NCBI RefSeq assembly: GCF_040409795.1
Contig: NZ_CP099571.1
Location: 310,001-374,000 of the forward strand
Direction of reading: 5' to 3'
DNA: 64,000 nt
From: Polynucleobacter sp. MWH-UH19D
GTDB taxonomy: Bacteria > Pseudomonadota > Gammaproteobacteria > Burkholderiales > Burkholderiaceae
Shown here: piece by piece, positions 731 through 16,886 of the stretch
Layout: each line of letters starts with the position of its first letter
Position numbering within the stretch: position 1 is the stretch's first letter
Notes under the pieces: model-generated
What the model saw: the letters and a program-made list of their open reading frames with translations, nothing else
Told to the model about the DNA's origin: nothing
The model's database searches: none
Position numbers and translations under genes: made by a program

Positions 731-2008
731 ATGAATGTTGAGTTAAGGAAATTAAAAATATGCATTGTGGGCCTGGGATATGTTGGTCTTCCTTTGGCTA
801 TAGAATTTTCAAGAAAATTCTCAGTAATCGGATTTGATATTAACTCTAGACGTGTTGAGGAATTAAGAAATGGGGAGGATGCTACTAAGGAGGTAAGTCC
901 TGGCTCCTTAGTAAATTTAAATTTACTTTTCACCGATGATGATGCTTTATTGAGGGACTGTAATTGTTTCATAATTACCGTTCCAACACCTGTTGATAAG
1001 CATAAACAACCTAATTTAAGACCCTTGCTCTCTGCAAGCAGAATAGTTGGGAAATCAATTGGGAAAGACGATCTTATAATTTTTGAATCAACAGTCTACC
1101 CAGGCGCAACTGAAGAGGAGTGTGTTCCAGTGATAGAGGAGGTCTCTGGACTTCTATATAACAGAGATTTTTTTGTTGGCTATAGCCCAGAAAGAATAAA
1201 CCCTGGCGATAGGACTCGAACCCTTTCATCAATTAAAAAAATTACTTCAGGATCAAATCCTAAAACAGCAAATTTTGTGGATGAACTTTATAAGTCAATC
1301 ATTGAGGCTGGGACATATCAAGCCGAGAGTATTAGGGTTGCAGAAGCTGCTAAAGTGGTGGAGAATACCCAGCGTGATTTAAATATTGCCTTAATGAATG
1401 AATTGGCAATTATATTTAATAGACTTGAGATTGATACTGAAGCTGTTTTAAAGGCTGCAGCAACAAAGTGGAATTTCATGCCCTTTCGTCCTGGATTGGT
1501 TGGTGGCCACTGTATTGGTGTTGACCCTTACTACTTAACACATAAAGGTCAAGCGATTGGCTGTTATCCTGAAATCATATTGGCGGGGCGAAGGTTGAAT
1601 GATGGTATGGGGGCCTATATATCGTCACAACTTGTTAAGCTAATGATGAAGCATGGCATTCAGGTACGAAATTCAAAAATTCTTCTAATGGGTTTATCTT
1701 TTAAGGAAAATTGCCCTGATATTCGTAACACCAGAATTGTTGACGTTATAGCAGAGTTAAGGGATTTTGAATGTGATCTAGATGTCTATGACCCTTGGGT
1801 ATTACCTGAGGAAGCTCTAAGAGAGTATGCCATCACGCTGACTACTGAGCTCAATCCTGCTAAATATGATGCAATTGTATTGCTTGTTGCACACGATAAT
1901 TTTAAGGAAATGGGTGTTGATAAGATTCATGCGCTTGGAAAAGAGAAGCATGTTTTGTTCGATATTAAAAGTATCTTTCCAAGAGATCGGACCGATTTAA
2001 GGCTCTAA
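731..2008 (+). CDS. tviB: UDP-N-acetylhexosamine 6-dehydrogenase (TviB/WbpO family)
   Basis: The 425-aa protein has an N-terminal Rossmann motif [10 protein letters not shown] (about residues 15-24) and the acidic end of the second strand (GFDINSRRV). The catalytic Cys lies in [12 protein letters not shown] near residue 262. Length and motifs match the UDP-glucose/GDP-mannose dehydrogenase family, and the opening resembles TviB/VipA and WbpO, which oxidise UDP-GlcNAc or UDP-GalNAc to the uronic acid with two NAD+. The enzyme is cytoplasmic. AAAGG at 718-722 is a suitable ribosome binding site for the ATG. It is the first complete gene of a long co-directional run, and its stop overlaps the next start by one base. 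The product would be a HexNAcA donor, a natural substrate for the amidotransferases further on. Choice between Glc and Gal configuration cannot be made from sequence alone. Confidence 0.9.
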
Positions 2009-2682
2009 TGTTGCTAATTATTCAAGCTCGAATGTCCTCGGTGCGTCTTCCGGGAAAGGTGCTTATGAATATTTCTGGGCGACCAATGCTTGAAAGAGTT
2101 TGCGACCGAGTACTGCAATCTAGTGGTGTTAAGAAGGTGGTTATTGCAACTTCCAACCATTCATCGGACGATCCAATAGAGCAATTCTGTCGTTTGCGAA
2201 ATTTTTCCTATTTTAGGGGGGCGCTTGATGACGTGGCAGGAAGATTCCTGTCTGTAATTCAAAGAGAGGGGGCTGAAGAATTTATAAGAATTAGTGCAGA
2301 TAGCCCTTTAATTGATCCCAAGTTAATCGATAAGGCAGTGGAAGAGTATAGGCGTGAAAATTACGATTTGGTTACAAATGTATTACATAGAACTTTTCCA
2401 AAAGGTCAGTCTGTAGAGATAATTCGGAGTACCTCGTATAAGCGCATGTGCTGTGATTTAATAGATCTTGATGATCGTGAGCATGTTACTAAAGCGTTTT
2501 ACAGAAATTCTAGTGCTTACAAAATTAAAAATTTTTCAGCAGAGCTTCAAGCGGGAGAGTATCAACTTTCAGTTGATACTCTCGAAGATTTTGAAAGAAT
2601 ATCTACGATAGTTAATCTTTCAAGTGGGAAAGATGATGGCTGGCTGGATTTTGTAAAATTGATTGATAAGTTTGATCTATGA
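2008..2682 (+). CDS. SpsF-type cytidylyltransferase/nucleotidyltransferase
   Basis: The 224-aa protein begins with the signature QARMSSVRLPGKVL, typical of the SpsF/acylneuraminate cytidylyltransferase family (GT-A-like nucleotidyltransferase fold). It continues with RISADSPLIDP, where the Asp pair would bind metal. In Bacillus spore-coat clusters SpsF sits with a DegT aminotransferase (SpsC), a GNAT (SpsD) and a NeuB homologue (SpsE), and it is thought to activate the sugar with CTP. All four types occur here within 5.6 kb, so CMP activation of a nonulosonic-type acid is the favoured inference. Start ATG overlaps the upstream TAA (TAATG), indicating translational coupling. The exact substrate is unknown. 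Confidence 0.8.
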   Translation: MLLIIQARMSSVRLPGKVLMNISGRPMLERVCDRVLQSSGVKKVVIATSNHSSDDPIEQFCRLRNFSYFRGALDDVAGRFLSVIQREGAEEFIRISADSPLIDPKLIDKAVEEYRRENYDLVTNVLHRTFPKGQSVEIIRSTSYKRMCCDLIDLDDREHVTKAFYRNSSAYKIKNFSAELQAGEYQLSVDTLEDFERISTIVNLSSGKDDGWLDFVKLIDKFDL

Positions 2683-3693: not shown

Positions 3694-4842
3694 TTGAATA
3701 TACCATTTGGCATGCCGATTATTGGCGATGAGGAAAAATTAGCCGTAATGAAGGTCCTTGAAGGCACAATACTAGTTCATGGCCCCTTAGCCACTAAATT
3801 TGAGGATGATTTCTGTGAGTATACGGGGGCACCCTATTCTGTAAGCGTCTCCTCATGTACGGCTGGAATGCATTTAGTTTATTTTGCACTTGGCTATGGT
3901 CCAGGGGATGAAGTCATCGTTCCTGCGCAAACTCATGTAGCAACCGCCCATGCAGTGGAATTAACAGGCGCAAAGGCAGTTTTTGTGGATGCCGAGATGG
4001 AAACTGGCAATATTGATATCAATGCAATTAAGTCGGCAATCACTGCAAAAACTCGTGCAATTGCTGTAGTGCATTATTTGGGCGTGCCAGCAAATATGCC
4101 TAGAATTGTAGAGATTGCTAAAAAACATAATTTATTCGTCTTGGAAGACTGCGCCTTAGCGCCCGGAGCAAAAATTGATAACATTCACGTTGGTCTTCAT
4201 GGCGATGTTGGAGTATTTTCATTCTATCCGGTTAAGCATTTGACAACCGCTGAAGGTGGAATGATCATATTAAAAGATGAAAATTTTGCAAAGCGCTTGA
4301 GGCTATTAAAAGCTTTTGGTGTCGATAGAACCCACTCAGAGCGAAAAGAGCCAGGTCTTTACGACACGGTGGCCTTGGGATTCAACTATCGTATGAGCGA
4401 AATTCATGCTGCTATCGGTATTGAGCAAATAAAAAAATTGCCTGTATTTTTAGAAAAAAGGCGGCAAAATTTTGAGTTGCTTGAGAAAAATCTAATTGGA
4501 GCAAATGGGTTGAGATTATTGCCTCAACCGTTCGACAATCGCCTACAGAGTTGTCATTATTGCGCCGGAGTAATTCTTGATGAGGCTTTAATTTCGCGCC
4601 GCGGTGAAATTATGACCAAGCTTGGGCAAAAGGGCATTGGTACCAGCGTTTATTATCCGCAACCTGTCCCCAGAATGACTTATTATAAAAATAAGTATGG
4701 TTATGAGGTAACCTCATACCCTAATGCAACACGCATAAGCGATGGGATTATTGCGCTTACTGTTGCCCCCCATGTAACGCCTGAGCAGGTAGTTTATATG
4801 GCTGACGAGCTTAAAGAAATTATGAAAGATATAAATGGATAA
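3694..4842 (+). CDS. DegT/DnrJ/EryC1/StrS-type PLP-dependent sugar aminotransferase
   Basis: The sequence is a full-length sugar aminotransferase of about 380 aa. The PLP-binding region carries the conserved Lys in FSFYPVKHLTTAEGGM (about residue 190), and LEDCALAPGA has the Asp that contacts the pyridine nitrogen. I choose TTG at 3694 as start because a good AAGGGAG ribosome site (3682-3688) precedes it by five bases and the protein then begins MNIPFGMPIIGDEE. The frame is open six codons further upstream to a TTG at 3676 that overlaps the oxidoreductase gene and lacks a ribosome site. The enzyme transfers an amino group from glutamate to a keto-sugar nucleotide. It pairs naturally with the upstream Gfo/Idh/MocA enzyme. 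Confidence 0.88.
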   Translation: MNIPFGMPIIGDEEKLAVMKVLEGTILVHGPLATKFEDDFCEYTGAPYSVSVSSCTAGMHLVYFALGYGPGDEVIVPAQTHVATAHAVELTGAKAVFVDAEMETGNIDINAIKSAITAKTRAIAVVHYLGVPANMPRIVEIAKKHNLFVLEDCALAPGAKIDNIHVGLHGDVGVFSFYPVKHLTTAEGGMIILKDENFAKRLRLLKAFGVDRTHSERKEPGLYDTVALGFNYRMSEIHAAIGIEQIKKLPVFLEKRRQNFELLEKNLIGANGLRLLPQPFDNRLQSCHYCAGVILDEALISRRGEIMTKLGQKGIGTSVYYPQPVPRMTYYKNKYGYEVTSYPNATRISDGIIALTVAPHVTPEQVVYMADELKEIMKDING

Positions 4843-5875
4843 ATTTACAAACCTCAAAGGTAAGCGCATCGCAATCATTGGAGGCGCAGGATTTATTGGG
4901 CATAATTTAGCCCTCAAATTAAAAAGTCTTGGAGCGGAGCCTCACGTTGTAGATGGTTTGCAGGTGAATAACTTAGGGTATTACACAAGCGGTTACACAA
5001 CAGATCCAAATGCTGAGCGTTATATCTCATTTATTAATGAGAGATTAAATTTGCTAAGACAAAATGAGGTGGGACTACACATTATCGACGTGCGCGATTA
5101 CCACTTAATTAGTCATACACTTAATTCTATCAAGCCAGATGCAATAGTACATTTGGCAGCTATTGCACATGCCAATAGATCAAACAAAGATCCATTCTCA
5201 ACCTTTGATCATAGTATGCGCACTCTTGAAAATGTTTTAGATGCAAGCAAGAGTAGTGGTACACATGTAATTTATTTTTCGTCATCAATGGTGTATGGAA
5301 ATTTTGAAGGTAATGCAGTTACTGAAGATAGGCAATGCAATCCCTTGGGAATTTATGGCGCACTAAAGTACGGAGCGGAAAAACTAGTAATTGCCTATAA
5401 CCAGGTATTTGGTTTGCCTTATACAATTATCCGGCCATCTGCTTTATATGGTGAGCGCTGTGTTAGTAGAAGGGTTGGTCAAGCTTTCATTGAGAATGCG
5501 TTAATGGGTCGACCTCTTACAATTAATGGCGATGGAACGGATGGTCTTGACTTTACTTACATTGATGATCTTGCTCAGGGTGTAATTCTTACAATATCCA
5601 AAGAAGAGGCTATCAACGAAACGTTTAACATTACATTCGGAAGCGCAAGGCAAATTAACCAAATGGCTGAAATAGTGTTGTCAGAATTTCCGGGCTTGAA
5701 GTTGATGCGTAATCCAAGAGATGGTTTGATGCCTGAACGTGGGACATTAAGCATTGATAAGGCTAAACAGCTGCTTGGATATGCCCCTGAGTATCCCCTT
5801 GAAAGAGGCTTTATTCAATATATTAAGTGGTACAAGGACTTCGCGGAGCATAACCCTAAATTATTTTCGGGATGA
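4835..5875 (+). CDS. Extended SDR: NAD-dependent sugar epimerase/dehydratase
   Basis: The 346-aa protein has the NAD-binding glycine motif GGAGFIGHNL (residues 16-25), the HLAAIAHANRS segment, the SSS catalytic serine region (FSSSMVYG) and the YGALK YxxxK dyad. These features place it with UDP-glucose 4-epimerase/4,6-dehydratase-like enzymes. Its ATG overlaps the aminotransferase gene by eight bases. It could supply the C4-epimer or the 4-keto intermediate for the neighbouring aminotransferase; no separate dehydratase gene is seen nearby, which makes the second role tempting but unproven. A long insert after strand 2 (around YYTSGYTTDPN to LNLLRQNE) separates it from the commonest GalE forms. 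Confidence 0.82.
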   Translation: MDKFTNLKGKRIAIIGGAGFIGHNLALKLKSLGAEPHVVDGLQVNNLGYYTSGYTTDPNAERYISFINERLNLLRQNEVGLHIIDVRDYHLISHTLNSIKPDAIVHLAAIAHANRSNKDPFSTFDHSMRTLENVLDASKSSGTHVIYFSSSMVYGNFEGNAVTEDRQCNPLGIYGALKYGAEKLVIAYNQVFGLPYTIIRPSALYGERCVSRRVGQAFIENALMGRPLTINGDGTDGLDFTYIDDLAQGVILTISKEEAINETFNITFGSARQINQMAEIVLSEFPGLKLMRNPRDGLMPERGTLSIDKAKQLLGYAPEYPLERGFIQYIKWYKDFAEHNPKLFSG

Positions 5876-5894: not shown

Positions 5895-6593
5895 ATGAAA
5901 ACTTTCGATAAGGATCAATGGCTAAGCTCAATTTTGGGGAAGAATGTATTTCAAGTTGACTCTAAATTCGCATCGCAACTAACTCCTTCACACTTGCCAC
6001 AAGGCCCAGCGCTTGTGATGGTAAAAGTACCTGTCAGCAATATTCGGGATTGCAAACATTTACAGGGACTTAATTTTTTTCTAGTAGACACTAATATCCA
6101 GTTGCAAAAATTACGTGATAAAAGCGGTTTATTAGTGAATAGTATGAATGTAAGATTTGCAAATCCCTCTGATGAGGAGGCGATTTTAAAAATCGCAGCT
6201 AACTCATTTACCTATGATAGGTTTCATGGCGATCCTGGTATAGCGCACAAAACTGCTGAAAAAATAAAGGTAGAGTGGGCCCAGAATTACTTCAGGGGGT
6301 CTCGAGGTGACTGGATGGTTGTGGCAGAGGATGGTGGCATTGTTTCTGGTTTTTTGCAGCTATTACATGGTCAAGACGGTGTGCTTATAATCGACCTCAT
6401 TGCAGTGGGTGCGAATTATCGCCATAAAGGAGTCGCCCAAAAGATGATTGGGTTTGCAATCCAAAATTGTGAAGCAAAGATTGATATTGTAAAAGTGGGT
6501 ACTCAGATTGCAAATCTCCCCTCAATTTCTCTATATCTCAAAATGGGGTTTTATATTACCTCTGCACACTATATTTTTCATTGCCACCTATAA
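5895..6593 (+). CDS. GNAT-family N-acetyltransferase acting on an amino sugar (inferred)
   Basis: The C-terminal ~140 residues of this 232-aa protein form a GNAT domain. The N-acyl-CoA pyrophosphate loop is VGANYRHKGVAQKMI (about residues 175-189), a variant of the RxxGxG/A motif, and a typical end LYLKMGF follows. The N-terminal part contains FTYDRFHGDP, reminiscent of dTDP-amino-sugar acetyltransferases such as WecD and of SpsD-type proteins. Its place between an aminotransferase/epimerase pair and a NeuB-type synthase suggests acetylation of a newly introduced amino group. The next ORF opens inside its last codons. Confidence 0.75.
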   Translation: MKTFDKDQWLSSILGKNVFQVDSKFASQLTPSHLPQGPALVMVKVPVSNIRDCKHLQGLNFFLVDTNIQLQKLRDKSGLLVNSMNVRFANPSDEEAILKIAANSFTYDRFHGDPGIAHKTAEKIKVEWAQNYFRGSRGDWMVVAEDGGIVSGFLQLLHGQDGVLIIDLIAVGANYRHKGVAQKMIGFAIQNCEAKIDIVKVGTQIANLPSISLYLKMGFYITSAHYIFHCHL

Positions 6594-6604
6594 AAATTTC
6601 TTAT

Positions 6605-7606
6605 ATGAACTATAGTTTTAATCGAAACAACAAAGTGTTTATTGTTGCTGAAATTGGTAACAATCATGAGGGTAGCTTTGATCTAGCGTTGGAGATGGTG
6701 GAGGCCGCCGCAAAAACAGGTGTTGATGCTGTTAAGTTCCAAACATTCATACCAGCAAAATATGTTTCAAGCGAAGATTCTGTTAGGCTAGAAAGACTTA
6801 ATAAATTTAAGCTATCAAACGAGCAGTATCTACAGATTGCTAAAAGAGCAGAAGAATTAGGAATAGTATTTTTTTCAACTCCTTTTGATCTAGAAAGTGC
6901 TGCATTTCTAAATAAAATTCAACCGATTTTTAAAATTTCATCTGGAGATAATAATTTCTTCCCATTGATTGAGGAGGTGGCATCTTATAAGAAGCCAACA
7001 ATAATTTCCTCTGGCTTGGCAGATTTAGGTGCCTTAAAATATCTGGTTGATTTCTGGCACGGCATTGGAGGGAGGGATGAAAATTTAATTATCATGCATT
7101 GTGTCTCCAGCTATCCAGTCCCTGTTGATCAGGCAAATTTGCGGGCAATTTCAACCCTGAAAAATATTTTCCCAAATTTAATTATTGGATACTCGGATCA
7201 TACCCTGGGTATCCAGGCTTGTGTTTTGGCTGTCGCAGCTGGTGCGGGAGTTATTGAGAAGCACTTTACCTTGAGCAAGAACCAGTCAGACTTTCGTGAC
7301 CATCAACTATCTGCAGACCCTTTAGAAATGAGAAGCTTGGTAACTCAGGTTCGTGAAGCGTCAATTCTGTTGGGGAGTGGAGTAAAAAATTTGCAGCCTT
7401 GCGAAATAGATATGGTAAAGCTTATGAGGAGATCAATTGCTGCTTCTCACGCCCTTAATGCTGGACAATTGATTTGCAAAGAAGATTTAACATGGGTGAG
7501 GCCAGGTAATGGCTTTTCAGTTGGAAGGGAAAATGAGGTAATTGGTAAAAAAATTCTGCGAGATGTTATTCAGGGAGAGTTGATAACAAAAGATAATTTA
7601 ATATGA
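6605..7606 (+). CDS. NeuB/SpsE-type nonulosonic acid synthase (PEP-condensing) with C-terminal SAF domain
   Basis: From ATG 6605 this is a 333-aa protein. The TIM-barrel N-terminal part starts VFIVAEIGNNHEGSFDLALE and continues VDAVKFQTF, FFSTPFD and KISSGD, all hallmarks of sialic/pseudaminic/legionaminic acid synthases that condense PEP with an N-acylated amino hexose. GYSDHTLG, EKHFTL and DHQLSADP are the conserved active-site strands. The last ~60 residues (RRSIAASHALNAGQ to KDNLI) form the antifreeze-like SAF domain. The frame extends upstream to a TTG at 6581 inside the GNAT gene, but the ATG matches family length better. It implies that a nine-carbon or related ulosonic acid is made. 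The sub-type cannot be fixed without phylogeny. Confidence 0.9.
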   Translation: MNYSFNRNNKVFIVAEIGNNHEGSFDLALEMVEAAAKTGVDAVKFQTFIPAKYVSSEDSVRLERLNKFKLSNEQYLQIAKRAEELGIVFFSTPFDLESAAFLNKIQPIFKISSGDNNFFPLIEEVASYKKPTIISSGLADLGALKYLVDFWHGIGGRDENLIIMHCVSSYPVPVDQANLRAISTLKNIFPNLIIGYSDHTLGIQACVLAVAAGAGVIEKHFTLSKNQSDFRDHQLSADPLEMRSLVTQVREASILLGSGVKNLQPCEIDMVKLMRRSIAASHALNAGQLICKEDLTWVRPGNGFSVGRENEVIGKKILRDVIQGELITKDNLI

Positions 7607-8322
7607 AAAAAATAGTTATTCTGACCACTGAAACCATACACCATGCTTTTTTTGTAAAAGAGCTTTCCAGTTCTTTTGGTGAAATTTCTGTTTATTGTGA
7701 AAAGTCAAAAGGAAATTTATTTCCATTTAAAACAAGTCATCCATTTGAAATACGCCGAGATGAATTTGAATTGAATAAGTGGTTTTTTGGAAAAAAAATT
7801 TCCATCGCCGATATAGCACTTGTTAAGTCATTCGATTCTTTAAATAGCCCTCAGGCAATCGAAGCTCTATCAAAAGAGGAGGCTGTCGTCGTAATTGCAT
7901 TCGGGGTTGGACGTTTGGGAAAGGAAATTATTAATTTATTTCCCGGAAAAATATTTAATCTACATGGTGGCGACCCGGCTCTATATCGTGGATTAGATAG
8001 TCATTTATGGGCTATATATCATCATGATTTTTCTTCCCTTGTTACAACACTGCATCGTCTGGACTTGGAATTAGACACAGGAAATATTGTAATGCAGGGG
8101 GACATTAAAATTTCTCGAGGAATGGCAATCGAGTCTCTTAGATCTGTAAATACTGAATTATGTATAACGATGGCACTTACCTTAATCGATTGTGCTTCAA
8201 AACTTCGTGAGGTACCCAGTCGAAAATTATTACATCTTGGCAGATATTATTCCGCCATGCCAACAGAGCTCAAGGAAATATGCGTAGGAAGATTTGAACA
8301 ATATTCTCAGCAAGTAGTATAA
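7603..8322 (+). CDS. Formyltransferase-family protein, probable sugar N-formyltransferase
   Basis: The 239-aa protein has the formyltransferase core: an N-terminal strand/loop region, then NLHGGDPALYRGLDSHLWA (about residues 125-143), which matches the N-x-H catalytic signature and YRG segment, and LELDTGNIV, which carries the conserved Asp. These are the Asn, His and Asp residues used by 10-formyl-tetrahydrofolate-dependent formyltransferases. It is shorter than methionyl-tRNA formyltransferase and lacks that enzyme's C-terminal domain, so a sugar amino group is the likely acceptor. It starts four bases inside the synthase gene. N-formylation would be an alternative to the GNAT acetylation encoded two genes earlier. 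Confidence 0.78.
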   Translation: MKKIVILTTETIHHAFFVKELSSSFGEISVYCEKSKGNLFPFKTSHPFEIRRDEFELNKWFFGKKISIADIALVKSFDSLNSPQAIEALSKEEAVVVIAFGVGRLGKEIINLFPGKIFNLHGGDPALYRGLDSHLWAIYHHDFSSLVTTLHRLDLELDTGNIVMQGDIKISRGMAIESLRSVNTELCITMALTLIDCASKLREVPSRKLLHLGRYYSAMPTELKEICVGRFEQYSQQVV

Positions 8323-8324
8323 AG

Positions 8325-9254
8325 ATGACGCCAAATATCGCTCCATCAAATATATGTGAATTCCTGCACAAGGACAATCTCGTTATTTTTTTATTTCATG
8401 GGGTAATCAAAAAACAAATACATTCAGTTCGCAACTACACAATGAAGCATATAGAGGGAGAATTATTTGATGAGTATATGGGTAAACTAGCGCATCAGGG
8501 AAGTCCAATATCCATGAATATGGTTTTAGATCATTTAGATAAAAAGAAACCGTTTTCGCCAGGCTCCTTTGCCATAACTTTTGACGATGGTTTTGAAAAT
8601 AATATAAGTGTGGCAGCACCAATATTGGAAAAATATAATATTCCAGCTATGATTTACTTGACTACTGATTTTATTCAAAATAATCGAATGTCTTGGATTG
8701 ATCGAATTGAGTATGCCGTACAGAAAACCAAAAAAAGTAAAATTACTTTGCAAGTGAATGATAATACTTATCCCCTGAATCATGTTGATGAAAAAATTAA
8801 TTTTTTAAGAGTCGTTAGAGAGTTAGTAAAAAAAACACCAACCTGCAACCCTAATTTATTTGCACATCAAGTATGTTCTGACCTTGGATTTCCTAGCAAT
8901 ATTAGCTCTGATGATCCGTTGGATTTAAAGTTATCATGGGATCAAATTCAGAAAATTCATAAAGATAATGGATTATTGAGTTTTGGGGGGCATAGCCATA
9001 CGCATCCTATATTAAGTTTTCTTTCTTCAGATGACTTAAGTTATGAGTTAGATAGAAGTATTTCACTAATGAAACATATGGCCGATATTGATTCAACTCA
9101 CTATTCTTATCCTGAGGGCTTGGCTCATTGCTATTCTGATGAAGTTATACGTGAGTTGAAGCAGCGGGGAGTTCGTTGCTGCCCAACTGCCATTCAGGGA
9201 AACAACTCGCTGGATATGGACCCATTCAAATTATTCAGAATTATGGTGGCTTAA
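8325..9254 (+). CDS. Polysaccharide deacetylase (NodB-homology) family protein
   Basis: The 309-aa protein contains the NodB motif 1 FAITFDDGFENN (around residues 82-93, with the catalytic base and metal Asp) and a motif-2-like GGHSHTHP that can supply the two metal-binding His. These indicate a CE4-type metal-dependent de-N-acetylase. No signal peptide is seen at the N terminus, so a cytoplasmic substrate (nucleotide- or lipid-linked sugar) is more likely than mature polymer. It begins two bases after the formyltransferase stop, and the AsnB start follows its stop by two bases, so expression is probably coupled. An alternative role is removal of acetyl to make room for formyl or amidino groups. 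Confidence 0.82.
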   Translation: MTPNIAPSNICEFLHKDNLVIFLFHGVIKKQIHSVRNYTMKHIEGELFDEYMGKLAHQGSPISMNMVLDHLDKKKPFSPGSFAITFDDGFENNISVAAPILEKYNIPAMIYLTTDFIQNNRMSWIDRIEYAVQKTKKSKITLQVNDNTYPLNHVDEKINFLRVVRELVKKTPTCNPNLFAHQVCSDLGFPSNISSDDPLDLKLSWDQIQKIHKDNGLLSFGGHSHTHPILSFLSSDDLSYELDRSISLMKHMADIDSTHYSYPEGLAHCYSDEVIRELKQRGVRCCPTAIQGNNSLDMDPFKLFRIMVA

Positions 9255-9256
9255 AT

Positions 9257-11098
9257 ATGTGTGGAGTTGCTGGTTACTTTGGAACCAATCTAATTTCCAA
9301 TGCTCGACTTGAGAGTTGTAAAAAGCTTATGGAGAGAAGGGGGCCTGATGGAAATGGCTACTTTTATAGAAAAGTTGGTAATGATAGAAATGCTCAAATA
9401 TTACATTCTCGATTGAGAATCCTAGATCTAGATGATCGATCTAATCAGCCATTTTTAACTGATGACGATTGCTTAAGTTTTAATGGTGAAATTTATAACT
9501 ATTTAGAGTTGAGGGATAGATTAAAAAAGAGTGGTGTGTCGTTCGCTACCGATGGAGATACAGAAGTTCTGGCAAAAGTCATACAAAAGTTTGGTGTTGA
9601 TGGCCTAGATCAATGTGAGGGTATGTGGGCATTTGCGTGGCTAGATGAGTCTGGACTGATTCTTTCTAGAGATCGTTTTGGGGAAAAGCCTCTCTATATC
9701 TTAAAGGATGAGACAGGACTTTATTTTGGATCAGAGCCTAAATTTATTTTTGCGCTCATAGGTCACACACTTCCAGTGAATAAAAACCATCTATTGAGAT
9801 ACATGGTTAACGGGTATAAAGCATTGTACAAAAGTGGCGATACATTTTTTGAGGGCTTAAAAGAGGTTCCGCCAGGCTCAGTATTAAAAGTGGACGTTCA
9901 TGGTGTGTGTGTCGAACAAAAATACTGGGTGCCAAAATTCAATCAGCAAATAGACGGGATGTCATTTGGAGATGCGGTATTAAATGCTCGTGAAGCCCTT
10001 ATTAACTCGGTCGAATTAAGGTTGAGATCTGACGTTCCCATAGCATTTTGTTTAAGTGGTGGGATTGATTCAAATGCATTAATTGCCATAGCTAAAAAAT
10101 ACTTAAATTACGATGTTCATGGTTACACAATTATGAATACGGATGAGCGCTATGAAGAGCAAGAAATGGTTAATGCTTCAGTAAATGCGTTACAACTTAG
10201 ACATACTGAGGTCCCAATCAATGAAAGTGACTTTTTAGATAATTTGCGGAAATTAGTTAAGTATCACGATTCCCCAGTTTCCACAATTACATATTATGCG
10301 CAGTGGCAGTTGATGGAAAAAATTGCTGAAGATGGTTATAAGGTTTCAGTATCTGGAACAGCTGCGGATGAATTATTTAGTGGTTATTTTGACCATCATA
10401 ATTTCTACTTAGCTTCGCTAAAAAATTATTCGGATGAGCAATTATTGGCTCGCAAAAATTGGCACGAGGTTGTGGCGCCTATAGTTCGAAATCCTTTCCT
10501 GCAAGATGCAGATTGTTTTATTAAAAATCCTAATTTGAGAGACCATATTTTTTTAGACGCAGCAGTCTTTCTTTCATATTTGAATTCACCTTGGTTTGAG
10601 AGATTCGAAGAAGAGGAATATAGCAATATTATTTTACGAAACCGAATGAATAATGAGTTGTTTCATGAATCGGTGCCGGTTATTCTGCATGAGGACGATT
10701 TGAATGCAATGTATTACTCGGTAGAGAATCGCTCTCCGTTTTTGGATAGAAGATTATTTGAAGTTTGTCAATCAATTCCTACTAGACATTTAATACGTAA
10801 TGGAAGAGCAAAGGCAGTTCTGCGTGAGGCTGTCAGAGGTTTGACTCCCGATATTATTTTAGATAATCCTAGGAAAGTTGGCTTTAATGCTCCAATTTTG
10901 GATTATCTAGACTTGAATAATCCAAAAATTAGAAGTCAAATTCTTGCAGATAGCCCAATTTTTCAGTTGATAAAGCGCGATTCTATAGAGGCTTTATTAA
11001 ATAAAGCGCATTTGCCAAACAGTCAAAGTAAATTCCTCTTTTATTTTTTAAATGCAAAAATGTTCCTTGAGGAATTTTCCGCGCAAGGTATATTATGA
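9257..11098 (+). CDS. asnB: Glutamine-dependent asparagine synthetase-like amidotransferase (complete active site)
   Basis: Starting at ATG 9257 the 613-aa protein begins MCGVAGYFG, leaving Cys2 as the N-terminal nucleophile of the class II glutaminase domain; RRGPDG and NGEIYNY complete that site. The synthetase half has the PP-loop LSGGIDSN (about residues 264-271) and the SGTAADELFSGY segment. The frame extends upstream to 9176, but that would bury the catalytic Cys. In O-antigen loci such AsnB homologues (for example WbpS) convert hexuronic acids to uronamides, and a HexNAc 6-dehydrogenase is present at 731 to make the acid. It overlaps the WbpG-type gene by four bases and may also provide ammonia for it. 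Genuine asparagine synthesis is possible but less likely in this setting. Confidence 0.85.
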   Translation: MCGVAGYFGTNLISNARLESCKKLMERRGPDGNGYFYRKVGNDRNAQILHSRLRILDLDDRSNQPFLTDDDCLSFNGEIYNYLELRDRLKKSGVSFATDGDTEVLAKVIQKFGVDGLDQCEGMWAFAWLDESGLILSRDRFGEKPLYILKDETGLYFGSEPKFIFALIGHTLPVNKNHLLRYMVNGYKALYKSGDTFFEGLKEVPPGSVLKVDVHGVCVEQKYWVPKFNQQIDGMSFGDAVLNAREALINSVELRLRSDVPIAFCLSGGIDSNALIAIAKKYLNYDVHGYTIMNTDERYEEQEMVNASVNALQLRHTEVPINESDFLDNLRKLVKYHDSPVSTITYYAQWQLMEKIAEDGYKVSVSGTAADELFSGYFDHHNFYLASLKNYSDEQLLARKNWHEVVAPIVRNPFLQDADCFIKNPNLRDHIFLDAAVFLSYLNSPWFERFEEEEYSNIILRNRMNNELFHESVPVILHEDDLNAMYYSVENRSPFLDRRLFEVCQSIPTRHLIRNGRAKAVLREAVRGLTPDIILDNPRKVGFNAPILDYLDLNNPKIRSQILADSPIFQLIKRDSIEALLNKAHLPNSQSKFLFYFLNAKMFLEEFSAQGIL

Positions 11099-12219
11099 AA
11101 TGGTGTAAAAATTGTGTTTTGCCGGATACAAGACCGGGCCTTGTTATTGGAGAGGATGGTATTTGTAATGCCTGCAAAAATCACAATACTAAAAAGCACG
11201 TTGATTGGAAACAAAGAGAGATAAGTTTCAAAAAAATTGTTCAGAAGGCAAAGGCATCATCTGATGGATATGACTGTGTTATCCCTGTAAGCGGGGGTAA
11301 AGATAGTACATGGCAAGTTATTAAATGCCTTGAATATGGCTTGACGCCTTTGGCTGTTACTTGGAGAACTCCTGGCAGAACTGAAATTGGCCAGAGAAAT
11401 TTGGATAATCTCATTTCACTAGGTGTTGACCATATTGATTATCAGGTTAGCCCAAAGCTTGAGTCTCAGTTCATGTTACGAGGCCTTGAGCGTTTTGGCT
11501 CTACCGCCATTCCAATGCATATGGCCTTATTTAATATTCCATTAAATATTGCTATTAAATTCAAAATTCCATTGGTTATTTGGGGCGAAAATTCAGCATT
11601 TGAGTACGGCTCTGATGATGATAGCTTGAGTGGTTATAGATTAAATTCGGCTTGGCTTTCTAGGTTTGGGGTGACGCATGGAACGACTGCAGCAGACTGG
11701 GTCGGAGATGGTTTTACACCAAAAAATCTCGCAGCATATTTTGGGCCCAGCCAGGAGTTGATGGACCATTCTGACTTAAATGCAATATTTCTTGGGCATT
11801 ACTTTAAGTGGGATCCTGAGACTAGCTTGGCATCAGCAAAAGCTAACGGGTTTGAGTTTATAAGTGGGGGGGCTCGGACAGGCTTATATGACTACGCTGA
11901 TATAGATGATAACTTTATCTCATTACATCATTGGATTAAATGGTATAAATTTGGCTTTACTAGGCTTTTTGATAATTTATCTCTTGAAATACGTAACAAT
12001 AGATTAAGTAGGAATGAGGCTATTAAAATAATTGCAACTGCAGGTAATCAGAGGCCGAAAGACGATATTTTGAAATTCTGCAATTTCGTAAAAATAGACC
12101 CCAAAAATTTTTATGACATTTGCGAAAAATTTAGGAACTTGGATATTTGGAGTCACTCAGGTGGTCAATGGAAAATCAATAATTTCTTGATAAAAGATTG
12201 GAATTGGGATGCAATTTAA
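11095..12219 (+). CDS. wbpG: N-acetyl sugar amidotransferase, WbpG/PseA-type PP-loop enzyme
   Basis: The 374-aa protein opens with a four-Cys zinc-ribbon pattern (CKNC at 4-7, CNAC near 25-28) and then the ATP pyrophosphatase loop SGGKDST (about residues 67-73). The pair is characteristic of the WbpG/LegG-like amidotransferases that turn an N-acetyl group into an acetamidino group. In the described Pseudomonas system WbpG works with HisH- and HisF-like partners that deliver ammonia; neither partner is found in this window, while a complete AsnB lies immediately upstream. The 126-aa unknown downstream overlaps this gene by eleven bases and may be a partner. Family assignment is firm, the ammonia source is not. 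Confidence 0.87.
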   Translation: MKWCKNCVLPDTRPGLVIGEDGICNACKNHNTKKHVDWKQREISFKKIVQKAKASSDGYDCVIPVSGGKDSTWQVIKCLEYGLTPLAVTWRTPGRTEIGQRNLDNLISLGVDHIDYQVSPKLESQFMLRGLERFGSTAIPMHMALFNIPLNIAIKFKIPLVIWGENSAFEYGSDDDSLSGYRLNSAWLSRFGVTHGTTAADWVGDGFTPKNLAAYFGPSQELMDHSDLNAIFLGHYFKWDPETSLASAKANGFEFISGGARTGLYDYADIDDNFISLHHWIKWYKFGFTRLFDNLSLEIRNNRLSRNEAIKIIATAGNQRPKDDILKFCNFVKIDPKNFYDICEKFRNLDIWSHSGGQWKINNFLIKDWNWDAI

Positions 12220-12589
12220 GCCTCTTGACCCCCCCAGAAAATTCGAGGTTTCTGGCGCTGGCCTGAAGTTGGAGCTTGCGGATTGCGGAAGCCTTGATCT
12301 AAATCCAGATGAGCAGGTTACATTCACGACTGATTCAGGCGGTCAGTATGACGTTACAAGAAAAAGCTGGGGGTTCTATGCCACGCCCTCCATTAATGGC
12401 CGACTAAAATCTTTTGGCTTGAGAGGTGCATTGGTTGTCTCGAAGTTTGGAAAAATTTTTTTAATGCTTGTTGAGGCTGGAAAAGAATCCGAATTTTTTA
12501 CTTACATTAATTCAGATTTACAGAGCTTTTTATGTTGGTTAGACGAGGACCAAGAGGTTGAAAGAATTACAAGACTTTTGAAAAAATAA
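12209..12589 (+). CDS. Conserved-looking 126-aa protein of unknown function, coupled to the amidotransferase
   Basis: I do not recognise a family. The protein is small and soluble-looking, with no signal peptide or membrane helix. Its N-terminal half is rich in short alternating strands (FEVSGAGLKLEL, EQVTFTTDSGGQYDVT), followed by an amphipathic helical tail ending in VERITRLLKK. The start codon lies within the end of the WbpG-type gene, so the two are probably translated together. Position suggests an accessory or stabilising subunit of the amidotransferase, or a sugar-binding protein. That is inference from neighbourhood only. Confidence 0.72.
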   Translation: MQFKPLDPPRKFEVSGAGLKLELADCGSLDLNPDEQVTFTTDSGGQYDVTRKSWGFYATPSINGRLKSFGLRGALVVSKFGKIFLMLVEAGKESEFFTYINSDLQSFLCWLDEDQEVERITRLLKK

Positions 12590-12595
12590 TTTATC

Positions 12596-13432
12596 GTGAA
12601 AGTAAAAAACTTAATTTGCCCCATGTGCTCTCAAGAAGGTATTCAAAAGAAATTTTCTTACGATGCACCTCAAGATGTGGAGAAAAATTTTCCGATAGCC
12701 AATCAAGGGTCATACTGGAGAGAGATGTATTGTTGTAAAAATTGCGGTCATTTTCTTGAGAGTTTTGATGGGAACCAAAATAAGCTGTATTCAGAAGAAT
12801 ATGTTTCCTCTACATACCAAGATTTGATAGGTATTAAAAAAGCTTTCGACAGAATAAATAATCTTAGCCCATCTGAATCAGATAATATTGGGCGGGTAAA
12901 GTATATCGATGAATTTTGTAAAGAATATTGGAAAAGTAATGCATCCACATCAATCAATCTATTAGATGTTGGTGCTGGATTAGGTGTATTTCCATTTCAG
13001 ATGAAAAAGATTGGCTGGGAATGTACTGCCATAGATATGGACGACCGTCTGGTAGAGCATCATAGAGGAGTGGTAGGCATCAAAAGTTTTTGTGGTGATT
13101 TAAGGCAGAATTCCTCACTTGGCTTATATAACTTGATTACCTTTAATAAGGTTTTAGAGCACATTGATAACCCAGTCGAAGTTCTTGCATACGCGGGGCA
13201 ACTATTGTCAGATAATGGATTGATATATGTTGAGTTGCCTGACGGAGAGGCGGCTGCAAATGAGGGAAAGAATAGAGAAGAGTTTTTTATTGGGCACATA
13301 CATGTTTTTAGCTTCTCGTCGTTTGCTTTGCTAGTTCAAAAATCAGGCTATCAATTGATATGTTGTGAGCGAATTAGAGAGCCAAGCACAAAATACACAT
13401 TACGCGGTTTTATGAGGAAATATAGTGAATAA
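12596..13432 (+). CDS. Class I SAM methyltransferase with N-terminal zinc-ribbon
   Basis: Translation starts at GTG 12596. The first 50 residues hold two CxxC pairs (CPMC near 9-12, CKNC near 47-50), a zinc ribbon like that of sugar C-methyltransferases of the TylCIII/NovU group. The SAM-binding motif I is LLDVGAGLGVFPF (about residues 122-134), and FNKVLEHIDNP is the usual post-motif segment. At 278 aa it is much shorter than the ~400-aa C-methyltransferases, lacking their C-terminal domain. It starts six bases after the 126-aa gene and overlaps the next methyltransferase by eight bases. It probably methylates a nucleotide sugar or glycan. Confidence 0.82.
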   Translation: MKVKNLICPMCSQEGIQKKFSYDAPQDVEKNFPIANQGSYWREMYCCKNCGHFLESFDGNQNKLYSEEYVSSTYQDLIGIKKAFDRINNLSPSESDNIGRVKYIDEFCKEYWKSNASTSINLLDVGAGLGVFPFQMKKIGWECTAIDMDDRLVEHHRGVVGIKSFCGDLRQNSSLGLYNLITFNKVLEHIDNPVEVLAYAGQLLSDNGLIYVELPDGEAAANEGKNREEFFIGHIHVFSFSSFALLVQKSGYQLICCERIREPSTKYTLRGFMRKYSE

Positions 13433-14351
13433 TAAAGATACCCCAACAGTTGATATTGAAAAAGCAATTAAAAATTGCTATTCAACCTGGGGCGAGGTTT
13501 ACTATGATGAATATTATGGTGATGGAGCTCCCTATCCCCCTGTCCATTTAAATTTAATCAAGTCTATACTCAACGATGCAGGTTCAAAAAGGGTGCTAGA
13601 TGCTGGTTGTGGTCCAGCGTCTATGTTGAGGCACTTCTTACAAAAAGGGCGGGAAATTTACGGGTTTGATTTAACTCCTGAGATGGTACTTGAGGCTAAA
13701 AGAGTTATGGGACAGCTTGGGGTGCCTGAGTCACACGTATGGGAAGCAAGCGTATTAAATCCTTCTGGGTATTTTTGTGATTCAGCGAATGATGACAAGT
13801 ATGATGCCATCGTAAGCTGCGGGGTGTTCCCTCACCTCAGGGAGGAAGACGAAATTGTGGCAATAAGCAATATTTACAATTCTCTTATGCCGGGAGGGTT
13901 GGCAATAGTCGAGGCTAGAAATGCACTTTTTTCATTATTTGCTTTAAATAGACATACCTATGAATTCTTCACCGAAAAGTTGATTCCCGTTGAGGAGCTT
14001 AGAGGTTTCGCCACAAATGAAGAAAATGTGAAATTAGAAGTTGCATTAGAGCAATTAAAGGCGCAATTAAGAACTGACTTACCCCCAATTAGAAAGGGTA
14101 AGGCGGGGGAGCTTGGTTATGATGAGGTCTTATCTAGACTACATAATCCTCTTGAGCTTGAAAGAGTGTTTAAAGAGGTTGGCTTTCAGGAAGTTGAAGT
14201 TGTTTTTTATCATTTCCATAGTCTTCCGCCGCAATTCTCAGGTTCAATCCGGAACTTGTTTTTACAAGGTAGCATAAATATGGAAGAAAATCCAAGAGAT
14301 TGGAGGGGGTACTTTATGGCCTCTGCATTTTGTGTTGTCGCAAAAAAATGA
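13425..14351 (+). CDS. Class I SAM-dependent methyltransferase
   Basis: The 308-aa protein starts at GTG 13425, overlapping the preceding gene. Motif I is VLDAGCGPASMLRHF (about residues 48-62) with the acidic ribose-binding residue in IYGFDLTPEMV. YDAIVSCGVFPHL is the motif IV region typical of O- or N-methyltransferases. A C-terminal segment of about 100 residues (from FTEKLIPVEE onward) probably forms the substrate lid. It is one of three consecutive methyltransferase genes at 12596-15025 that overlap each other. Acceptor unknown; a sugar hydroxyl or amino group is likely from context. Confidence 0.82.
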   Translation: MNNKDTPTVDIEKAIKNCYSTWGEVYYDEYYGDGAPYPPVHLNLIKSILNDAGSKRVLDAGCGPASMLRHFLQKGREIYGFDLTPEMVLEAKRVMGQLGVPESHVWEASVLNPSGYFCDSANDDKYDAIVSCGVFPHLREEDEIVAISNIYNSLMPGGLAIVEARNALFSLFALNRHTYEFFTEKLIPVEELRGFATNEENVKLEVALEQLKAQLRTDLPPIRKGKAGELGYDEVLSRLHNPLELERVFKEVGFQEVEVVFYHFHSLPPQFSGSIRNLFLQGSINMEENPRDWRGYFMASAFCVVAKK

Positions 14352-15025
14352 TCAAAAAAAATGGGTGGGATAATTATTCAATTTGGGAACATAGTTCTAT
14401 AGTTAAAGAGCTATATAAAAAGAGGTGCAGACAAGAAATTCCGGAGATGACGTGCCATGCGCAGGCGATTGAGTTACTGAGGCCACATATTGTCGACGGA
14501 GATTCAGTATTAGATGTTGGATGTGGTAGTGGTTATTTTTTTCATTCTCTTGTTAGTAGAAAAATATCTGTAGAGTATTGGGGCATTGATTCATCATGCT
14601 CTCTTATAGATATCGGTCGTGAGGAGTTAGGAAAGTTTCAACTCCAACCTGACAAACTTCAAAATATCAGAATTGAAGATGTGGATGGAACCTTTGACCA
14701 TATCATTTGCATTAATGTACTTTCAAACATTGATAATTATCACAAGCCGCTTGAGAGAATGCTCAAAATGTCTAAAAAGACTGTCTTGCTAAGGGAGTCA
14801 ATTAAAGATAAATCAGAGTATGCCTATGTTCACGATCGTTATCTTGACTGCGGTGTGAGTTTAAATGTGCACGTGAATCATTATGGCCAGAATGAAATCC
14901 TGGAATTCATAGGTCGCTATGGATATGAAGCGCAAATAGTAACAGATTTGCGAACTGGCGGGAACTCGGAAATGGTTATAGATCATCCTCACTATTGGAA
15001 GTTTATTTTGGCTAAGAGAAGATAG
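14348..15025 (+). CDS. Class I SAM-dependent methyltransferase
   Basis: From ATG 14348 this is a 225-aa protein beginning MIKKNGWDNYSIWE. That ATG overlaps the upstream stop by four bases (ATGA), so it is preferred to the longer frame that begins at 14300 inside the neighbour. Motif I is VLDVGCGSGYFFHSL (about residues 51-65), and HIICINVLSNIDNYHK matches the motif IV region. The length is that of a minimal Rossmann methyltransferase without extra domains. It ends one base before the second AsnB-like gene. The acceptor cannot be predicted. Confidence 0.82.
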   Translation: MIKKNGWDNYSIWEHSSIVKELYKKRCRQEIPEMTCHAQAIELLRPHIVDGDSVLDVGCGSGYFFHSLVSRKISVEYWGIDSSCSLIDIGREELGKFQLQPDKLQNIRIEDVDGTFDHIICINVLSNIDNYHKPLERMLKMSKKTVLLRESIKDKSEYAYVHDRYLDCGVSLNVHVNHYGQNEILEFIGRYGYEAQIVTDLRTGGNSEMVIDHPHYWKFILAKRR

Positions 15026-15026
15026 T

Positions 15027-16886
15027 ATGTCACGAATCGCTGGAATCATAAGTAGCACCCCTCTTAATTTGCGGGGTCTTATTTCAGAAATGAAGGCAGG
15101 TATTACATCCAATGTCGGGTGGAATGATGCAGCCATAAATACTGGAAAATTTGGGGTATTTATTTGGTCGGGTTGGCGAACTCCTGAAATTTTTCGATAT
15201 GGAGCTACTGTTATAGCTATAGATGGGATTTTTTATAACCGACAGGAAATTGATTTATTAATCGGCGCTAAAGTTGATTGCAACGATACCTATAGATTTA
15301 ATCAGCTTTACGGAATTTTTGGCTTTGAAGGCGCACTTCGGAAAATTAATGGAGATTTCTCAATCTCATTATTTAATGAAGATACCGAAGAGCTCTACTT
15401 AGCGCGGGACCGTTTTGGCGTTAAGCCACTTTACTATGTTAATTTTCCAGATCATTTCGCTTTTGCTTCAAGGCCTAGAGGATTGTTTTGTGTGCCAAAA
15501 GTTACCAAGGAGTTGAATAAGAGATTTGTTGCTGTTTTTGGAGGCGCTCATTATAGATATATAGATAATGTTTCTGAAGAGTCCCCCTACGAACAAATAA
15601 AACAGTTGCCCTCAGCACATTTTTTGAGAGTATTTAAGGGGCGCATAAATATTCAACGTTACTGGGATCTGTATGAGCAGCCTGATTTTAAAGATGATGC
15701 AGCCGATTTGGCTGCCCAATATCAGAGTCTACTGATAGATTCCGTTGAAAAGAGAATGGGCTCTTTGAGCGGAAGATCTGCGTTTACTCTCTCTGGAGGG
15801 TTGGATAGTTCTTCAATTTTATCTTGCGCCGTTCACTCTACCGGTCAAAAACAAATTGCATTTTCAAGTGTATATCTTGACAAAACATATGATGAATCTG
15901 AAGAGATTAAAAGTATGCTTGATTCAAAAGTTGAAATGTGGAATCCAGTAGAAATTAATGTATCCAATGTTTTCAATTTGGTTGATAGTATGGTTGGTGA
16001 TCATGATGAGCCTGTTGCAACGGCAACCTGGTTATCGCATTACATACTCTGTAATGATGTCTCTAACGCGGGCTTTAGTAATCTATTTGGTGGCCTGGGG
16101 GGTGATGAATTAAATGCAGGAGAGTATGAGCACTTTTTCTTTCATTTTGCAGATCTTAAATATGCTAGAAAACAAGAGCTATATTCGCAAGAGGTTGAAA
16201 AGTGGGCTGAATACCATAACCATCCAATTTACCGTAAAAATAGATCTGTGGCGGAAGCGTCACTTCAGAGCAAGGTTGATATCGCTAAGTCTGGAGTGTG
16301 TAATCCACAGATTTACGAAAGCTCTAATTACCTAAATACAATCAACAAAGAATATTTTGATTTAAAGGAATTTAGACCCATAATGGATCATCCATTTGAA
16401 AGTTATTTAAAAAATCGTACTTATCAAGATATCTTTAGAGAAACAGCGCCTTGTTGTCTCAGGGCTGAAGATAGACAAACATCAAAATTTAACATTGATC
16501 ATATTGATCCTTTCTTTGATCATAGATTGGCTGAGTTTATGTTTCGGGTGCCTGGCGAGCTAAAAATTAACAGCGGGATAACGAAGGTATTGCTTCGCAA
16601 GGCTATGCAGGGAATCCTTCCAGAGGAGACACGAAATAGGATTGCTAAAACAGGCTGGAATGCACCAGCGCATTTATGGTTTTCAACGGAAAAATTTTCA
16701 GAAGAGCTTGGTGATTTAATTAACTCTAGCTTCTTCAGGGATTTGCAAATCTACAATATAAGCTTAGTCCATAAATTATTTGATGAGCATAGAAAAATAG
16801 TTCATTCAAATGAAAGTACTGAGAATCATATGATGTTTTTTTGGCAATTAATAAATTTAACAGCCTGGATTAAGAGTATTAATTAG
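15027..16886 (+). CDS. Asparagine synthetase-like protein lacking the glutaminase Cys (Ser at position 2)
   Basis: The 619-aa protein has the two-domain AsnB layout but begins MSRIAGIIS, so Cys2, the obligatory nucleophile of class II glutaminases, is Ser. The usual NGEIYNY is IDGIFYNRQEI, and the RRGPDG motif is not recognisable. RDRFGVKPLYY is kept. The synthetase domain is intact: PP-loop TLSGGLDSSS (about residues 255-264) and GGLGGDELNAGE. Loss of the glutaminase with retention of the adenylating domain is known in beta-lactam synthetase, carbapenam synthetase and lasso-peptide cyclases, which use an internal or external amine. Here it could use free ammonia, an amino acid or an amino sugar to form an amide on a uronic acid. 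It is clearly not a duplicate of the 9257 gene, being very divergent. Confidence 0.85.
   Translation: MSRIAGIISSTPLNLRGLISEMKAGITSNVGWNDAAINTGKFGVFIWSGWRTPEIFRYGATVIAIDGIFYNRQEIDLLIGAKVDCNDTYRFNQLYGIFGFEGALRKINGDFSISLFNEDTEELYLARDRFGVKPLYYVNFPDHFAFASRPRGLFCVPKVTKELNKRFVAVFGGAHYRYIDNVSEESPYEQIKQLPSAHFLRVFKGRINIQRYWDLYEQPDFKDDAADLAAQYQSLLIDSVEKRMGSLSGRSAFTLSGGLDSSSILSCAVHSTGQKQIAFSSVYLDKTYDESEEIKSMLDSKVEMWNPVEINVSNVFNLVDSMVGDHDEPVATATWLSHYILCNDVSNAGFSNLFGGLGGDELNAGEYEHFFFHFADLKYARKQELYSQEVEKWAEYHNHPIYRKNRSVAEASLQSKVDIAKSGVCNPQIYESSNYLNTINKEYFDLKEFRPIMDHPFESYLKNRTYQDIFRETAPCCLRAEDRQTSKFNIDHIDPFFDHRLAEFMFRVPGELKINSGITKVLLRKAMQGILPEETRNRIAKTGWNAPAHLWFSTEKFSEELGDLINSSFFRDLQIYNISLVHKLFDEHRKIVHSNESTENHMMFFWQLINLTAWIKSIN

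Follow-up and report, generated by a model that had tools for sequence, protein, structure and literature searches.

A lineage of N-acetyl sugar amidotransferases without its own HisH/HisF pair is encoded with AsnB1 and the unnamed protein p126, a possible replacement for the usual nitrogen supply

How does a sugar amidotransferase obtain its nitrogen when the genome encodes no dedicated pair of proteins for delivering it? WbpG needs a HisH/HisF pair, the same ammonia route from HisH to HisF applies to N-acetyl sugar amidotransferases (NASATs), and ammonia delivery to enzymes that form sugar amidines has so far been tied to these two proteins. In HisFH, ammonia is released from glutamine by HisH and then handed onward by HisF (PMC8115485). 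Here, we analyze a NASAT gene at 11095-12219 of a 64,000-nucleotide stretch of the Polynucleobacter sp. MWH-UH19D genome (contig NZ_CP099571.1, positions 310,001 to 374,000 of the forward strand; hereafter the window, and its genome the window genome). A preliminary description made from the sequence alone recognized a WbpG-type amidotransferase at this position, saw no HisH or HisF partner in the window, and proposed that ammonia may come from the preceding AsnB or from the medium, or that the following 126-residue protein may replace the missing subunit. We find that the absence of a dedicated pair extends to the whole genome, and that the NASAT belongs to a lineage whose genes recur beside those of AsnB1 and p126 in many phyla. 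The four genes at the core of the locus are as follows:

9257..11098, + strand: AsnB1, glutaminase plus PP-loop ligase, with the start placed at the MCG methionine (the open reading frame is listed from TTG 9176); assigned by TIGR01536, clade, and motifs.
11095..12219, + strand: NASAT, a WbpG/WbuX-type PP-loop N-acetyl sugar amidotransferase of the AsnB/p126-linked lineage; assigned by TIGR03573, motifs, the 8WEX profile match, and the tree.
12209..12589, + strand: p126, a conserved unnamed small protein; no known family, 24 homologous loci, an alignment, and a structural model with a predicted local distance difference test score (pLDDT) of 89.5.
12596..13432, + strand: MT1, an S-adenosylmethionine (SAM) methyltransferase with a GTG start, candidate amidine N-methyltransferase; PF13489.

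The NASAT open reading frame (ORF) starts with ATG and encodes 374 residues. Its assignment as a WbpG-type amidotransferase is borne out by TIGR03573 (N-acetyl sugar amidotransferase), against which it scores 308.7 bits, above the curated cut-off of 203.2. The PP-loop is intact (SGGKDS, residues 66-71, matching SGGxDS) and so is the CxxC...CxxC zinc motif (Cys 4, 7, 24, and 27), both motifs being taken as defined for NASATs in PMC10607449. A profile of NASAT relatives matched a sole structure in the PDB, 8WEX from Legionella (E 2.1e-73), and this NASAT is the only one above the TIGR03573 cut-off in the window genome. The overlaps that had been described with its two neighbors were also recovered, i.e., four bases with AsnB1, which ends at 11098, and 11 bases with the 126-residue ORF, which starts at 12209.

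Three lines of evidence support the idea that AsnB1 and p126 stand in for HisH and HisF. First, no HisH2/HisF2 pair is encoded in the window genome, whereas dedicated pairs accompany the NASAT in all ten other sampled genomes of the family whose NASAT is above cut-off. The window genome is a single contig of 1.95 Mb with a completeness estimate of 100%, and it was searched whole, the window included. PF00977 identified the two his-operon proteins HisA and HisF (genome positions 103254-104713); a further, partial match of 23.6 bits (1770128-1770565, profile positions 77-221) lies just at the cut-off of 23.6, and another of 22.5 bits lies below it. TIGR01855 identified one HisH above its cut-off (102574-103206) and four other matches of at most 19.4 bits. 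Nothing in the whole window genome exceeded the cut-off of 299.7 for TIGR03572, which describes WbuZ, the NASAT-associated HisF: HisF of the his operon scored 281.7, HisA 98.9, and the partial PF00977 match 21.7. A dedicated HisF-like protein, i.e., a TIGR03572 member or an extra full PF00977 copy, was not found in the whole window genome, nor was a dedicated HisH-like glutaminase, HisH of the his operon being the only one above cut-off. The preliminary description had named dedicated copies elsewhere in the genome as the finding that would overturn its view; the whole-genome search found no second pair, and the single HisH and single HisF present are those of the his operon.

Among 398 genomes of the family, 11 carry a NASAT above cut-off, namely the window genome, six others of the same genus (G033, G084, G264, G269, G349, and G383), and four of other genera (G002, G082, G125, and G257). 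A third strong PF00977 copy is present in 10/10 of the others while the window genome has two, and in 10/10 HisH and HisF lie at most 4.5 kb from the NASAT; p126 was not found in any of these ten HisH/HisF-type genomes. Ten more family genomes with partial, below-cut-off NASAT matches have neither a third PF00977 copy nor p126, and four fetched stretches with partial NASAT matches (L155-L158) contain neither HisH/HisF nor p126. A phylum-wide sample of 398 genomes has 53 NASAT places in 42 genomes; the 52 places outside the window genome were fetched, and partners were counted within the fetched stretches rather than in whole genomes. The table of NASAT neighborhoods takes in domains spanning 770 bases or more, leaving out fragments in L041, L042, L045, L054, and L155-L158. 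Of the 52 places, 38 lie no more than 4.5 kb from both HisH and HisF (two NASATs sometimes share one pair), two are fused to HisF, two are AsnB-linked like that of the window, and for the other ten no partner lies within that range. Five of these ten lie less than 1.5 kb from a contig end; L133, L136, L140, L146, and L170 do not.

Second, p126 and AsnB1 are conserved beside this NASAT, and 24 of the 25 such NASATs placed in a tree share one branch and 16 lineage-specific positions. p126 matched no family in Pfam, NCBIfam, or PHROG. A tblastn search of plasmids found one relative (53%), annotated as hypothetical, in Azospirillum brasilense, where the gene order resembles that of the window: an oxidoreductase/epimerase-like protein, GNAT, NeuB, AsnB, NASAT, p126, and a methyltransferase. 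Fifteen other plasmid records with a NASAT-like match (at most 32% identity) gave no p126 match. A scan of genome contigs added 23 p126 loci at 39-66% identity, titled Pseudomonadota (Pelagibacteraceae, Afipia, and Alphaproteobacteria), Omnitrophota, NC10, Nitrospira, Cyanobacteria, Desulfobacteraceae/Desulfobaccales, Handelsmanbacteria, Actinobacteria/Thermoleophilia, Planctomycetota/Phycisphaerae, Chloroflexi, and Eisenbacteria, with one unassigned. By record title, p126 is thus spread over about eleven phyla; because most of these loci are metagenome-assembled, single phylum labels may reflect binning errors. The phylum-wide sample contributed two further genomes, G399 and G688. p126 is rare: it occurs in three of the 398 genomes of that sample, the window genome included, and in two of 392 genomes from the phylum to which G790 belongs, the carriers there being G790 itself (L054) and G795 (judged to be the L052 genome), with no new case.

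Together, these loci make 27 p126 units (the window, L036-L059, G399, and G688; L047 and L048 are near-copies). p126 starts at most 225 bp downstream of the NASAT end in 25 of them, and the overlap between the two genes is exactly four bases in 18 loci; in L059, MT1 lies between NASAT and p126 (807 bp). AsnB1 is found within about 1.2 kb upstream of NASAT in 23 of the 27 units, in 21 of them on one stretch; for L045 and L054, the link comes from another contig belonging to that genome, on which AsnB1 stands beside a partial NASAT. Only the C-terminal part of AsnB1 is present in L040, at the contig start, and the NASAT of L042 is split into two ORFs. MT1 adjoins p126 in 21 units; it is not beside p126 in L037, L057, and G688, and its adjacency is undecided in L047, L056, and L058, in which the stretches end within about 0.8 kb. 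The association of AsnB1, NASAT, and p126 genes across units is solid, and given its recurrence on the Azospirillum plasmid and on contigs of about eleven phyla, the order AsnB-NASAT-126-residue protein is more than chance. Conservation of AsnB and p126 beside the NASAT lineage across phyla is what would be expected of replacement partners.

In a tree of 89 NASAT domains, 24 of 25 AsnB/p126-linked NASATs fall on one branch (Shimodaira-Hasegawa-like approximate likelihood ratio test [SH-aLRT] 98), the exception being the divergent L056. A second tree of 81 rows, from which eight long or doubtful rows were left out (among them L059 of the p126 group), placed 23 of 24 on one branch with support of 99. 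A tree with L056 inside the AsnB/p126 group is not rejected by the approximately unbiased test (p-AU 0.667), and its likelihood is even higher. Sixteen NASAT positions are at least 95% fixed in the 24 lineage rows and present in less than 10% of the other 65; nine of the 16 fall in residues 263-294, where some other residues are invariant across the wider alignment as well. Since several of the lineage-specific columns are gaps in many other rows, part of this signal may be alignment shift. In L056, AsnB1 and p126 lie beside the divergent NASAT (8636-10342) on an 11-kb stretch without HisH/HisF, so that the NASAT may have been exchanged there.

Third, the glutaminase Cys of AsnB1 is conserved while its acceptor site is altered. 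AsnB1 scores 358 bits against TIGR01536 (glutamine-hydrolysing asparagine synthase; cut-off 267.1), and the AsnB1 rows form a clade of their own (n=20, SH-aLRT 100), apart from AsnB2 and from the AsnB proteins near HisH/HisF-type NASATs. Cys2 is kept in 20/20 rows, RGPD in 19/20 (RGPN in the other), and NGExYN in 19/20 (NGEIFN in the other). The acceptor-site Glu of SGExxDE, E348 in E. coli numbering, is Thr in 20/20 AsnB1 rows. A search of the window genome found no two-domain AsnB other than AsnB1 and AsnB2. Elsewhere, AsnB genes outside the AsnB1 clade are present in the NASAT stretches L122, L170, L174, and L176; that of L170 lies 6 kb from the NASAT on a 15-kb stretch without HisH/HisF.

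What p126 itself might contribute was approached through its alignment, which comprises 23 of 25 sequences (L048, the near-copy of L047, and the truncated L058 were dropped). Eighteen residues are invariant, including the run W54-S61 (WGFYATPS), and none of them is Cys or His; the sole frequent Cys, C26, is replaced by Thr or by Val in 3/23 rows. A role of p126 as a glutaminase, whether HisH-type or with another Cys, was rejected because there is neither a conserved nucleophile Cys nor an N-terminal Cys, and a HisF-type (beta/alpha)8 barrel was likewise discarded, p126 having 126 residues against the 228 positions of the PF00977 model and no Pfam match. The earlier idea that p126 may replace the missing subunit stands as far as its conserved place beside NASAT across phyla is concerned, and not as a recognizable glutaminase, leaving at most a structural, HisF-like role. 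The AlphaFold2 model (pLDDT 89.5, predicted template modeling score 0.76) consists mostly of strands with three helices. Foldseek found nothing for it at E <= 0.001 in PDB and BFVD, and a p126 profile had a sole match, at E 0.53, among PDB sequences. In VIA-align, residues 69-114 resemble phycobilisome linker domains (best Z 5.5, with 46 residues aligned at 3.2 A), a result that concerns the C-terminal part, the residues before 69 being barely tested; because the tool rates likenesses of this degree as common, we draw no function from it. A phage origin was also rejected, with no relative in viral contigs and phage tblastn matches at E 0.5 only.

NASATs of another lineage illustrate how the usual partner may work. 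In six p126 units (L043, L047, L048, L049, L053, and G688), HisH and a second NASAT that is fused to HisF are on the same stretch, and the seven fusions of these units and L168 form one branch (SH-aLRT 100). Single-chain HisF-NASAT fusions of about 700 residues, with a separate HisH gene, are found in L043 (17174-19264), L047, L048, L049, L053, L166, and L168. These natural fusions suggest that HisF works in contact with NASAT.

We, therefore, tentatively suggest, at a little less than an even chance, that the locus encodes a glutamine-fed amidine-forming module in which a HisH/HisF-free NASAT lineage uses AsnB1, with p126 as adaptor, as the replacement. AsnB1 would hydrolyse glutamine to bring in nitrogen, and p126 would dock on NASAT, as HisF usually does, thereby coupling NASAT to AsnB1. 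NASAT would then, at the expense of ATP cleaved to AMP and PPi, act on a nonulosonic-acid-like sugar made by NeuB and convert its N-acetyl (or N-formyl) group to an amidine, which MT1 may subsequently N-methylate. We infer ammonia transfer from AsnB1 to NASAT; for the proposal that AsnB is the ammonia source, the conservation of the gene beside NASAT across phyla speaks in favor, while AsnB1 keeps its own ligase residues and may run a separate reaction. A wider claim, that p126 founds a new class of coupling subunits through which an AsnB-type (N-terminal nucleophile [Ntn]) glutaminase feeds a separate PP-loop amidotransferase, the HisH/HisF channel having been replaced independently and the module spread horizontally across phyla, we consider unlikely, with perhaps a quarter of our belief behind it.

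The genes around the core bear on the substrate and are listed here together with AsnB2:

731..2008, + strand: UDP-glucose/GDP-mannose dehydrogenase family (PF03721, PF00984, PF03720).
2008..2682, + strand: cytidylyltransferase family (PF02348, 107 bits), possible CMP-sugar activation.
4835..5875, + strand: NAD-dependent epimerase/dehydratase family (PF01370, 146.9 bits).
5895..6593, + strand: GNAT acetyltransferase, WecD-like (PF00583, 45.7 bits; NF008212, 85.2 bits, below the cut-off of 219).
6581..7606, + strand: NeuB-type nonulosonate synthase (PF03102, 232 bits).
7603..8322, + strand: formyltransferase-like protein (PF00551, 40.9 bits).
8325..9254, + strand: polysaccharide deacetylase-like protein (PF01522, 63.1 bits).
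15027-16886: AsnB2, AsnB-like, the glutaminase Cys being replaced by Ser, with no RGPD motif and an intact PP-loop.

The cluster also encodes a DegT-family aminotransferase and methyltransferases, and, judged by their families, the surrounding genes would constitute a pathway for a nonulosonic-acid-like sugar. The NeuB-type synthase scores below the cut-offs of both the NnaB and the PseI models (TIGR03569, 309.2 of 399.65; TIGR03586, 242.6 of 340.25), and its product is possibly an undescribed nonulosonate. Relatives of the epimerase/dehydratase (at least 100 bits) occur in 14 of the 24 loci L036-L059; relatives of the formyltransferase-like protein occur in L041, L052, and L056 (188-194 bits) and weakly in L038 and L051, and those of the deacetylase-like protein in L041, L052, and L056. 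AsnB2 is probably a ligase with a dead glutaminase. It recurs, together with relatives of the two methyltransferases that precede it (13425-15025), in L036, L048, and L053, and its clade also includes copies from L050 and L166.

Several observations weigh against a module in which AsnB1 and p126 serve NASAT. L133, L136, L140, L146, and L170 are NASATs with room on both sides, without HisH/HisF within 4.5 kb and without p126, and HisH/HisF-free neighborhoods thus occur outside the AsnB/p126-linked lineage as well; among the five, L146 scores below the family cut-off, and in the L140 genome a pair adjoins the other NASAT (L121). In the Actinobacteria loci L047, L048, and L053, HisH and a HisF-NASAT fusion adjoin the module. 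The linkage itself has gaps: p126 of G688 lies about 17 kb from its NASAT, AsnB1 was not found in G785 (L047), the best match there being 28% identical, and in L048, L053, and L058 AsnB1 is encoded at another place in the genome, in 3/3 cases beside NeuB, so that AsnB1 tracks NeuB at least as closely. AsnB1 also keeps the PP-loop SGG[IV]DS and the conserved Lys in 20/20 rows, implying that it catalyzes a ligase reaction itself, and the ammonia tunnel is internal in known AsnB structures. Nor is departure from Glu at the acceptor site peculiar to AsnB1, since it is absent from all ten other AsnB rows that have a residue at this position (Leu in five, Asp in three, His in one, and Gln in one); a non-Glu acceptor site is common among the AsnB proteins of such clusters, and only Thr is confined to AsnB1 in the aligned rows. 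Finally, p126 is tied to MT1 as well, the two sharing one ORF in L040 (1771-3030, a Nitrospira metagenome-assembled genome), possibly a fusion, and we considered p126 as a partner of MT1 rather than of NASAT.

In the main rival explanation, AsnB1 would be a separate glutamine-dependent carboxamide synthetase acting on a carboxylate of the same sugar or of a uronic acid in that glycan, with NASAT using free ammonia and p126 aiding substrate binding or the hand-over to MT1, i.e., one sugar and no complex. This explanation is a serious one, to which we give about a third of our belief. The motifs of both AsnB1 halves are retained, the acceptor residue being the only departure from the solved synthetases; the association with NeuB in all three split genomes points the same way, and the dehydrogenase at 731-2008 would make a uronic acid, a possible acceptor for AsnB1. 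There are also parallels in the literature: in peptidoglycan, diaminopimelate is amidated by AsnB homologues (PMC8554201), and for Tannerella a role of an AsnB in nonulosonate modification (acetamidino group) has been put forward without test, the cluster there having UDP-ManNAcA as a further predicted product (PMC6120980). What a carboxamide synthetase leaves unexplained is why the absence of an own HisH/HisF pair goes together with AsnB1 and p126, and why AsnB1 stays with NASAT in L055, L057, and L059, loci in which NeuB either is not seen or lies on the opposite strand.

The lineage might alternatively add another amine or amide, with AsnB1 or p126 preparing the donor, in which case no ammonia channel would be needed. 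The 16 lineage-specific positions, nine of them between 263 and 294, and the lack of an own HisH-type partner are consistent with such a change, the former perhaps partly through alignment shift; conservation of the PP-loop and the zinc cysteines argues against it, as does the lack of any direct sign of a different donor, and we regard it as improbable. That HisH and HisF of the his operon, the only such proteins in the window genome, also serve NASAT is very improbable, given that a dedicated pair is retained in each of the ten other family genomes with a NASAT above cut-off and that this HisF scores below the WbuZ cut-off.

If AsnB1 and p126 do supply NASAT, they would provide a second nitrogen-supply route for rare surface sugars. 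A NASAT lineage without its own pair offers a natural test of how amidotransferases switch their ammonia source, it gives the unnamed p126 family a testable role, and the trio marks gene clusters that likely make unknown amidine-bearing sugars. Among the matches listed from PMC searches, which were judged by title and the start of the abstract, cover few subscription papers, and had no name under which to find p126, no publication on the AsnB1-NASAT-p126 trio was present; one listed paper, PMC12243275, contains both 'sugar amidotransferase' and 'asparagine synth'. While the NASAT family is known, the AsnB1/p126 partner set and the p126 family appear to be undescribed.

The solved relatives of AsnB1, i.e., glutamine-dependent asparagine synthetase and its relatives (1CT9, 6GQ3, and the hydroxyamidotransferase 7YLZ), share with it the two-domain layout, the glutaminase Cys, the PP-loop, and the Lys, and differ in carrying the acceptor-site Glu. 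PtmG belongs to amidine formation on legionaminic acid in Campylobacter. The legionaminic acid systems of Campylobacter and Legionella resemble the window cluster in combining nonulosonate genes and amidine formation with a methyltransferase (PtmH and Legionella ORF 8), and differ from it in that the window NeuB falls below the NnaB and PseI cut-offs. N-methylated amidines are known in these systems (PMC3766260, PMC13306086), and the analogy with PtmH and Legionella ORF 8 suggests that MT1 may be an amidine N-methyltransferase. For LpNASAT of Legionella pneumophila (8WEX), the only PDB relative found for the window NASAT, ATP conversion to AMP and PPi has been inferred and ammonia is the nitrogen source, no partner protein being named in the sections of PMC10607449 consulted. 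The same sections class WbpG and WbuX as NASATs, and wbpG, hisH, and hisF lie together in the Pseudomonas B-band locus as described in part of PMC2147049. With the WbpG-HisH2-HisF2 system of Pseudomonas aeruginosa O5 and the WbuX-WbuY/WbuZ system of E. coli O145, the window NASAT shares TIGR03573 membership, PP-loop, tetracysteine motif, and location in a sugar-polymer cluster, and, in an alignment with five NASATs that are linked or fused to HisF, it shows 25-31% identity to them. However, where those two systems have HisH and HisF, the window NASAT has AsnB1 upstream and p126 downstream.

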